From positions 1 through 31,819 of IMG/VR virus record IMGVR_UViG_3300035665_000169: a DNA stretch of 31,819 nt. One strand, given 5' to 3'. This document shows, piece by piece, positions 12,727-15,426 of this stretch. This DNA is from a virus. Below the pieces are notes generated by a model. That model had not been told where the DNA came from, did not search any database, and saw only the letters and a program-made list of their open reading frames with translations. Numbering within the stretch: position 1 is the first letter of the stretch; each line of letters opens with the position of its first letter. The position numbers were made by a program, and so were the translations under genes.

Positions 12727-12939
12727 CCCGATCTGGTGGACTCGCCCGTGACGCCGAGGTTGGCGATGGAGCTGTATTCGGCTACCGCGCAGGCCCTGGC
12801 CCGCTGGGAGCCGCGCTTCAAACTGACCCGGGTACGCATTGCCAAGGCTGAAGTCGGCCAAGTGGTGCTTGATCTGGAAGGCATTTATCTGCCGGATGGC
12901 GCCGCCACGGTGTTGGCGGGTGTGGAGGTATCCCCATGA
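12598..12939 (+). CDS. W: Baseplate wedge protein gp25/P2 gpW-like (intact copy)
   Basis: A 113-aa protein (P2 W is 115). It has the gp25-like pattern: SGLHHLRQSIRDILTTRIGTRVMRRDYGSRL, DLVDSPV, ARWEPRFKLTRVRI and the C-terminal VVLDLEGIYLPDG. It belongs to the inner ring of the baseplate. Its first 43 codons are duplicated upstream at 10513-10641, so its own 5' end may be of foreign origin. It ends in an ATGA overlap with J (12936-12939). Confidence 0.93.
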   Translation: MIGLNAESGQALSGLHHLRQSIRDILTTRIGTRVMRRDYGSRLPDLVDSPVTPRLAMELYSATAQALARWEPRFKLTRVRIAKAEVGQVVLDLEGIYLPDGAATVLAGVEVSP

Positions 12940-13778
12940 GTGTCGTCACCGATCTGTCCAGTCTGCCACACCCTTCGGTCATCGAAGCCCTGTCGTTCGA
13001 GGCTATCTTTGGGGCGCTGCAGGCAGATTTCCAGAGCCGCTACCCGCAGTATTCGGCGCTCTTGGCCTCTGACCCGGCGATCAAGTTGCTGGAGGTCGCC
13101 GCCTACCGCGAGGTGCTGTTGCGCAACCGTATCAATGCGGCGGCCAAGGCCAGCCTGCTGGCTTTTGCCACCGACAGCGATCTGGATCACCTGGCCGCCT
13201 TCTACGGCGTCACGCGGCTGGCTGGCGAGATGGATGAAGCCCTGCGTGCGCGCACGCGACAACGCATCGTCGGCTTCGCCAATGCCGGCGGTGCGGCCCA
13301 CTACCGCTATTGGGCGCTCTCAAGCTCACCGGAAGTCGCCGATGTCGAGGTGGACAGTCCGGAACCGGGCCGGGTGCGCATCAGTGTGCTGGCCAAGGGC
13401 GAGGGCAACACGGTGCCGCTGGCAGTACTCGATGCCGTGAAGGCCGTGGTACTGCGCGACGACATCCGGGTGCTGACCGACACGGTGGACGTAGTGCCAG
13501 CCGAATTGTTGCCGGTCAATGTGCAAGCACGCATCTGGCTCTACCCCGATGCGCCGCTGGAAACGCTCAGCGCCATCCGGGCCGTCTTTGCGTCGGCGAT
13601 GGCCGGCAGTGCCGGTCTGGGCTGGGATTTGACCCGCTCGTGGATCATCGCTCAGTTGCAGCGTGCCGGGGTCCACAAGGTGGAGCTGCTGTCGCCGACA
13701 TCCGACATCACCGTGGTGGCCAATCAGGCGGTGCGGCTGACAACGCTGAATCTAGAATTTGCAGGGCGACAACGATGA
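12936..13778 (+). CDS. J: Baseplate protein J, P2 gpJ-like
   Basis: A 280-aa protein (P2 J is 302). Baseplate_J hallmarks are the N-terminal DLSSLPHPSVIEALSFEAI, DPAIKLLEVAAYREVLLRNRIN, the LAFATDSDLDHLAAFYGV block, GFANAGGAAHYRYWALSS, and the end PTSDITVVANQAVRLTTLNL. It bridges gp25 to gpI in the wedge. It starts at ATGA with gp25. Its stop also forms an ATGA, but this now belongs to a short ORF inside an inserted repeat and no longer to the gpI gene. Confidence 0.95.
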   Translation: MSVVTDLSSLPHPSVIEALSFEAIFGALQADFQSRYPQYSALLASDPAIKLLEVAAYREVLLRNRINAAAKASLLAFATDSDLDHLAAFYGVTRLAGEMDEALRARTRQRIVGFANAGGAAHYRYWALSSSPEVADVEVDSPEPGRVRISVLAKGEGNTVPLAVLDAVKAVVLRDDIRVLTDTVDVVPAELLPVNVQARIWLYPDAPLETLSAIRAVFASAMAGSAGLGWDLTRSWIIAQLQRAGVHKVELLSPTSDITVVANQAVRLTTLNLEFAGRQR

Positions 13779-13858
13779 CGCCCCCACGCTCACTTCGTTT
13801 GCTGCCCCCCGAGGGGGCGCTCGCCTCCCTTGGGGCGGCCCGGCGGGAGGCGCGATGA
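13775..13858 (+). other. 27-codon bridging ORF through the inserted repeat
   Basis: ATG 13775 overlaps the J stop (ATGA) and the ORF's own TGA (13856-13858) overlaps the gpI ATG at 13855. The peptide (MTPPRSLRLLPPEG, then Ala/Arg-rich) is the plain translation of the repeat and is unlikely to have a function of its own. Its possible value is mechanical: ribosomes finishing J could translate through the element and restart on gpI. Confidence 0.5.
13781..13852. repeat. GC-rich palindromic dispersed repeat (Comamonadaceae-type)
   Basis: Two strong hairpins: GCCCCC/GGGGGC (13804-13809, 13813-13818) and CGCCTCCC/GGGAGGCG (13822-13829, 13845-13852). The sequence resembles a short repeat scattered between genes in Comamonadaceae and related Burkholderiales; that is from memory. 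An 11-bp direct repeat with one mismatch flanks it (CGATGACGCCC at 13773-13783, CGATGACACCC at 13853-13863), as a target duplication would. The insertion length is 80 bp. Confidence 0.75.
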
Positions 13859-15426
13859 CACCCGAACACTTGCTGCCCTCGAATGCCACGCCGCTGGAGC
13901 AGGCACTGTCGCTGGCGACCGACCCGCTGACCCGGTTGACGCTGTCAGCGCACGCTGTTCGTGACTTCAAAGCCAAGCCCAGCGATCCGTTGTTGCCCTG
14001 GCTCATCTGGGAGTACGGACTCGGGGAGCTGTTGCCCTACTTGCCCGAACCGCGCCGGGCGATTGCCGAGGGGATTCTGTGGCAGCGGCTGCGTGGCACA
14101 CCGGCAGCGCTTGCCACGGCGCTGTCCTGGATCGGCGCCACAGCGACGGTTGAGCAGGAACCGCCCGGCGTTCACTTTGCCGAATTCCAGCTCGACCCGG
14201 GGATGGTGTTGGACAGCGATGAGCGCATCGCCAACCTGATCGCCATCGCCCGATTGTCGGCACCGGCACGCAGCCGCCTCTCCCGGATCTACCACGGCTA
14301 CGACCTGCGCCGCTTGGTGCTGGATGACAGTCTGCTGGGCGAGGCCTTGCTCTCGGATCACAGCGGGATCGTCTGGCACGATGGGCAGACGCGGCTGTCG
14401 TTTGGGCGGGTGCGCAAATTTGCGCTCTCCGCTTTGGCTATTGATGCCAGCAATCAGCGTGAGGCCGTGCGTTTCATCCAAGCCCGGCTGCTGGATCGGG
14501 TGCTGCTGGATTTCTCGGTACTCGGTGACCGGGGCCATACCCCCAATGAGGAGATCCTTCATTCGCACCTGTTCACGCTGAGTAATTTCGCGGGCGTGCC
14601 CGATCCGCTGGGACTGTTGCCTGAGCGCCGCTTCTGCCGGGCGATGGTGGTGCTATCAAGCAGCACCTCCTTGGGAGACAGTAACGCCAATCTGCCACGC
14701 TTTGTCTGGCGCGAGGAAGGTCATCCGATCACGCTGGGCGCTGGGGACCGGCTCTCGGCGACGTGGCATCGGCTGATCCGGATCGAGGTGTTGCAGCGCT
14801 TTGATGCCAATCACATCGGGGACCTGGTGGTGCCGACGTTGACGCTGGCCAGCGGCCGGCAGACAAGTGCTGCGCACCACGTGCAGGCCCGTGCCGACCA
14901 GCATCTGGGAACACTACTGCTCGGGGAGCGCAAACCAAGTTTCGACCGAGGTTTCCTGCAACGGCTACACGAGCGCCGCAATGACCCGCTGCCCGACGCG
15001 GCTGGCTGGCGAGCCCGGCGCTATCAGCGCGCGCAGGTGGTGCTGTCAGAGGCGGTGCTGGGCGAGATCAACACCCGCACGCCACGGGCGGCACTGCACC
15101 GGATGCAGGCGCTACCGCGCTTGGGTGAGTTCCTGCTCGGCCAGTCCGGTGCAGAAATCGAATCGCTGGCCCTGACACAGATGTTGGGACGCGTGCTCGA
15201 CCTTGGGGCGCTTGAGGCTTTGGTCTTTGCGCCGACACGCTCGGCACTCAGACGCCTGATCACCCAATGCAGTTCGCCGCTGCTTGCCACAGCCCATCCA
15301 TCGCATGAGCACACCGCCTGCGTGCGCACCGATTGGCAAGGCCAAACCTGGACCGGTATTCGCTGGCCGGCGTCGAGTTGGCGCGACACCCGCGAAGTGA
15401 TTGGCAGCGCCCACCTCACGCAATAA
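13855..15426 (+). CDS. I: Baseplate protein I, P2 gpI-like, with long C-terminal extension
   Basis: A 523-aa protein from ATG 13855. A longer frame opens upstream, but that part is only translated repeat. Residues ~1-165 match tail protein I: MTPEHLLPSNATPLEQAL, FKAKPSDPLLPWLIWEYGL, WQRLRGTPAALATALSWIG and SRLSRIYHGYDLRRLVLDD. P2 gpI is only 176 aa; the remaining ~350 residues are unlike P2. They carry a loose repeat, R..V.L..S..LG(D/E), at ~153, 215, 262 and 392, and probably form a beta-rich fibre-attachment part. gpI links the wedge to the fibres. No SD of note is seen; coupling from the bridging ORF is possible. Confidence 0.85.
   Translation: MTPEHLLPSNATPLEQALSLATDPLTRLTLSAHAVRDFKAKPSDPLLPWLIWEYGLGELLPYLPEPRRAIAEGILWQRLRGTPAALATALSWIGATATVEQEPPGVHFAEFQLDPGMVLDSDERIANLIAIARLSAPARSRLSRIYHGYDLRRLVLDDSLLGEALLSDHSGIVWHDGQTRLSFGRVRKFALSALAIDASNQREAVRFIQARLLDRVLLDFSVLGDRGHTPNEEILHSHLFTLSNFAGVPDPLGLLPERRFCRAMVVLSSSTSLGDSNANLPRFVWREEGHPITLGAGDRLSATWHRLIRIEVLQRFDANHIGDLVVPTLTLASGRQTSAAHHVQARADQHLGTLLLGERKPSFDRGFLQRLHERRNDPLPDAAGWRARRYQRAQVVLSEAVLGEINTRTPRAALHRMQALPRLGEFLLGQSGAEIESLALTQMLGRVLDLGALEALVFAPTRSALRRLITQCSSPLLATAHPSHEHTACVRTDWQGQTWTGIRWPASSWRDTREVIGSAHLTQ

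Follow-up and report, generated by a model that had tools for sequence, protein, structure and literature searches.

A BRE-like mobile repeat in a phage baseplate operon and its probable role as a translational bridge

Sequence comparisons make it likely that a mobile repeat resembling the Beta-proteobacterial repeat element (BRE) was inserted at the start codon of phage gene I, where a micro-ORF running through the repeat keeps I translationally coupled to the upstream gene J, and that insertions which broke such coupling have been lost by selection. The repeat lies in a myovirus module: "the window", by which we mean the whole stretch of DNA analysed, is a 31,819-base IMG/VR record that carries head, sheath and baseplate genes. 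In the proposed mechanism, ribosomes finishing J would re-initiate on the micro-ORF; the micro-ORF ribosome would melt hairpin 2 of the repeat, stop atop the start codon of I and use the repeat's GGGAGG to re-initiate there. Gene I would then stay coupled to J, and purifying selection would remove the insertions that fail to provide this.

The repeat left both proteins undamaged, as their termini are those of relatives: the C-terminus of J (NLEFAGRQR) is intact and stops at the same point as in relatives, which end NLEFAGRDR, and the N-terminus of I (MTPEHLLP) matches theirs. The J stop (TGA, 13776-13778) falls within an ATGA (13775-13778) and the I start (ATG, 13855) within a second one (13855-13858). 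The original prediction, made from the window's sequence, had described an 80-bp insertion with two hairpins parting J from I, and this is what we observe from ATGA to ATGA (13775-13858). The bounding copies that it named, CGATGACGCCC (13773-13783) and CGATGACACCC (13853-13863), are both present, 80 bp apart, and so are the other ATGA overlaps of the operon, found at the W/J junction and at no fewer than five further places across the window. AcaML1, an Acidithiobacillus phage, is the sole named phage with similarity across the full J/I stretch (12936-15426; 71.6% DNA identity), and it lacks the repeat.

The frame from the ATG at 13775 to the TGA at 13856-13858 translates as MTPPRSLRLLPPEGALASLGAARREAR followed by the stop, confirming from the coordinates the predicted 27-codon ORF, which overlaps the stop of J with its start and the start of I with its stop. 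The locus has the two overlaps and the strong Shine-Dalgarno sequence by the downstream start that are expected of a translationally coupled micro-ORF. The same frame is already open from 13310, upstream of the micro-ORF, and an open frame in one GC-rich locus, taken alone, is weak evidence; its significance rests on the family-wide register test described below. It had been regarded as curious that coupling survived an insertion whose length is not a multiple of three. The geometry fits, and it is the rule among junction copies, but the length is no oddity, since 80 is 2 modulo 3, exactly what an ATGA-to-ATGA bridge needs.

Table 1. Features at the J/I junction, in window coordinates.
Feature	Coordinates	Strand	Basis or remark
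Baseplate gene J (gpJ-like), upstream partner	12936..13778	+	PHROG 6 baseplate wedge, 5e-57
27-codon micro-ORF bridging J and I	13775..13858	+	ATGA overlap at each end
Body of the repeat, CCCCCACGCTC...GGGAGGCGCG (BRE-like family)	13781..13854	+	covariance model and BLAST
Hairpin 1, GCCCCC-CGA-GGGGGC	13804..13818	+	nearly invariant across the family
Hairpin 2, variable arms CGCCTCCC / GGGAGGCG, conserved loop TTGGGGCGGCCCGGC	13822..13852	+	arm covariation
GGGAGG, Shine-Dalgarno of gene I	13845..13850	+	contributed by the repeat, within hairpin 2 (right arm); mean unpaired probability 0.16, anti-SD energy -10.3 kcal/mol
Tail/baseplate gene I (gpI-like), downstream partner	13855..15426	+	PHROG 17612, 2e-128

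No relative of J or I with a readable junction carries the repeat (about 95 loci, some on the same contig). Together with the homologues in beta-proteobacterial replicons reported below, this absence bears out its description as an inserted, host-type palindromic repeat. What the junction looked like beforehand is less straightforward. The closest relatives, at roughly 60-84% protein identity, mostly have the J stop, about 15-50 bp of spacer, and then GGAGGGCAC-ATGAC; CG-ATGA overlaps were found only in more distant relatives (L037/L229, L030, L031, L033, L039, L234-L246). The nearest uninserted relatives therefore do not show the CGATGACxCCC junction that had been anticipated. The claim of an ATGA overlap before insertion agrees with the distant relatives but sits poorly with the mostly spaced nearest ones; an overlap ancestor would nonetheless be the simplest reading, because the left flank of the J/I copy holds no native spacer.

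The element is about 80 bp long with a GC content of 0.77. Its body scores 96.3 bits (E = 4e-23) against covariance model R1, of which the window supplied one of the 25 training rows, and by BLAST is 92.9% identical to a sequence of Paraburkholderia caribensis over 70 bp. Thermodynamics alone would not reveal the stem of hairpin 2, the folding energy lying within the range of GC-matched shuffles (z = -1.4). The stem is supported instead by covariation of its arms across relatives. Among 55 copies, 8.0 of the 9 arm positions pair, against 5.2 (sd 0.17) with right arms reassigned at random between copies, and in the 25-sequence alignment all nine pairs vary on both sides, with a covariation score of 0.39 compared with 0.13 for shuffled and 0.03-0.07 for slid arms. 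Strong, conserved and covarying hairpins would also be expected if the element served mRNA processing or stability, a role demonstrated for other palindromic repeats, its hairpins setting J:I ratios as cleavage sites for RNases or as protectors of 3' ends. In other bacteria, related repeats are substrates of RNase III or E (PMC10969869), and Bordetella was observed to make bprJ transcripts from the BRE locus (PMC3110155). We nevertheless hold this explanation to be quite improbable, as it accounts for neither the reading register nor the position at the start codon.

Members of the family occur on more than 40 viral contigs and on a dozen Burkholderiales/Azoarcus replicons. The host data comprised plasmids and chromids, with homologues in those of Burkholderia, Paraburkholderia, Variovorax and Azoarcus; replicons searched whole mostly hold 1-4 copies, and five hold none. 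Matches among 72,556 plasmids were limited to beta-proteobacteria, which makes it plausible that the repeat dates the phage to this host group, as originally suggested, though it does not single out the host. No copies were found in 50,697 records of isolated phages, and Rfam, Pfam and NCBIfam contain no family for the element. We regard it as a non-autonomous mobile repeat of Burkholderiales and Rhodocyclales, within what is probably a known family. Several variants were observed. One tandem pair of copies (L090:1272-1444) is joined by GGGCATGATGACGCCCCC, and three copies lie within long open frames, apparently in frame (L107:303-389, L109:5506-5597, L136:3756-3847), comparable to Rickettsia palindromic elements. 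A second subclass (L085, L092, L094, L130), in which CTCCCCGCTGCGCG or CTCCACGGCTTCGCC separates the left end from hairpin 1, is located after stop codons or beside the start codons of opposite-strand frames.

Four natural empty sites show that insertion takes place at a start codon: in each, the native Shine-Dalgarno and a start codon are found on the left side of the repeat, while the native gene continues from ATG onwards at its right end. They are an ABC-transporter pair (L095 vs L175-L177), a dioxygenase/reductase pair (L099 vs L178-L182), a DUF3486-like junction in Mu-like phages (L144/L145 vs L146-L148) and a further Mu-like gene (L268/L273/L297/L329 vs about 70 relatives lacking the repeat). 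As read from these sites, the micro-ORF takes over the native ribosome site, and the repeat mostly supplies the gene with a new one. The Shine-Dalgarno in the repeat has a mean unpaired probability of 0.22, compared with 0.17-0.54 at empty sites, and so is only moderately more paired than some. Because the masking overlaps the empty-site range, gating by the hairpin is the weakest step of the mechanism, and we offer it as a weak prediction.

The proposed 11-bp target duplication did not survive comparison across the family. In 29 coupled copies the flanks share ATG(A) and agree only weakly just beyond it, with no longer run above chance; the left "CCC" of the supposed duplication is the repeat's own first bases. 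An 11-bp duplication is for these reasons not a family feature. We also rejected the idea that the variable arm is copied from the target: native flanks at the DUF3486-like and Mu-like sites mismatch the arm, and an identical arm occurs at different sites. Different repeat alleles were seen at one junction in Mu-like phages (L087, L111/L124, L129, L380), 5' of a gene that we take to be DUF3486-like; this may be a hot spot.

The register of the micro-ORF is kept across the family. Of 66 copies tested, 35 qualified: an ATG lies close to their left end, and a gene on the same strand begins at their right end. The micro-ORF ends at or adjoining the downstream start codon in 31 of these, mostly as ATGA, where one third would be expected (p about 2e-11); when 1 or 2 bases were inserted into the same 35 copies, 2 and 6 remained coupled. 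Counting orthologous sites once gives 28/31. Two of the four misses couple under slightly wider rules, L108 via a GTG start and L092 at a spacing just above the cut-off. A fresh set from outside the model training was coupled in 7/10 copies (6/7 sites), the one exceptional site being that at sdhE described below, and in host replicons scanned whole 10/14 copies were coupled.

These counts bear on whether the repeat is simply a neutral, selfish one, found at gene boundaries since insertions elsewhere are lethal and open in frame because GC-rich sequence is poor in stops. Such a view suits its composition (GC 0.77), its patchy presence, with the closest relatives lacking a copy, and the many uncoupled copies elsewhere. 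It is unlikely, in our judgement, as an open frame does not suffice: a stop must also fall close to the downstream start, which shifted copies of the same composition rarely provide (2/35 and 6/35 against 31/35), and a spacer insertion would be tolerable without any register.

A second alternative is that the element is a mobile micro-gene that brings a start and a stop of its own (ATGAAxCAACCCCC...GGAGGCTGACATG), coupling then descending from a single ancestral unit, with the peptide (..RSLPPEGA..LGAARREA) perhaps mattering. The LPPEGA frame is common to most copies, and ATGAAACAA starts recur across several hosts. Copies whose cores are read in the other two frames (L120/L127, L143, L349, L085, L086 at 3404) are nonetheless coupled, with unrelated peptides, and the peptide has no match in Pfam or NCBIfam, so that we find this version doubtful. 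Since coupling is kept in all three core frames, selection appears to act on the register, that is on coupling, rather than on the peptide. Part of the register could still have come with the element rather than through selection site by site. Training the covariance model on junction copies may also have biased the search towards copies of this kind, but not towards any one register.

Coupling is not strict everywhere. At one site in near-identical Paraburkholderia strains (L386/L390/L388), two strains have an in-frame fusion of the repeat to the N-terminal end of sdhE, a succinate dehydrogenase assembly factor gene, and the third has a frameshift. Comamonadaceae-like contigs carry many copies away from same-strand gene junctions, and coupling therefore characterises the junction class but not all copies.

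The usual view is that short palindromic repeats avoid coding sequence and coupled sites. This family appears to use translation as its means of being tolerated within operons and within phage modules, suggesting a possible route for mobile DNA into tightly packed genes; if so, many unannotated Burkholderiales ORFs of roughly 27 codons would be real translated bridges. A broader proposal is that a family of start-codon-inserting hairpin repeats serves phages and hosts as a portable translational coupler, handing the native ribosome site to a throw-away micro-ORF and its own hairpin-gated Shine-Dalgarno to the next gene; we would put the chances of this at about even. The literature searched did not yield phage presence, start-codon insertion or a portable translational-bridge role for the repeat. 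What is new is the register rule for the family, the repeat itself coming from a family that is probably known.

Translationally coupled ATGA pairs combine a stop/start overlap with re-initiation. The present arrangement shares both, and here an inserted repeat links two overlaps. Rickettsia palindromic elements are likewise palindromic repeats compatible with translation, with an ORF in each, but they are described as fusing in frame within proteins (PMC10969869), whereas here a separate micro-ORF stands between genes. Correia/NEMIS and ERIC elements are also short hairpin repeats next to genes whose expression they affect; the mechanisms described for them are promoters, IHF sites or RNase processing rather than a coupling frame (PMC10969869).

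The nearest known system is the BRE of Hot et al. 2011, a possibly mobile element of 75-91 bp and 63.7-78.9% G+C whose function was left open (PMC3110155). Its published table has no Burkholderia, whereas the present matches are mainly in Burkholderiaceae, and the description mentions neither phage copies nor a variable stem with covariation, nor insertion at start codons, nor coupling (PMC3110155). The name is for this reason probable rather than proven, the comparison having been made by description and not by sequence. The likeness nevertheless extends to size and G+C (about 80 bp and 0.77), to repetition in beta-proteobacteria, with Rhodocyclales and Comamonadaceae among the hosts, and to a mostly intergenic or gene-boundary position with occasional tandem copies (L090) or copies inside genes (L107, L109 and L136, in open frames), and on this description the element is probably the published BRE (PMC3110155).
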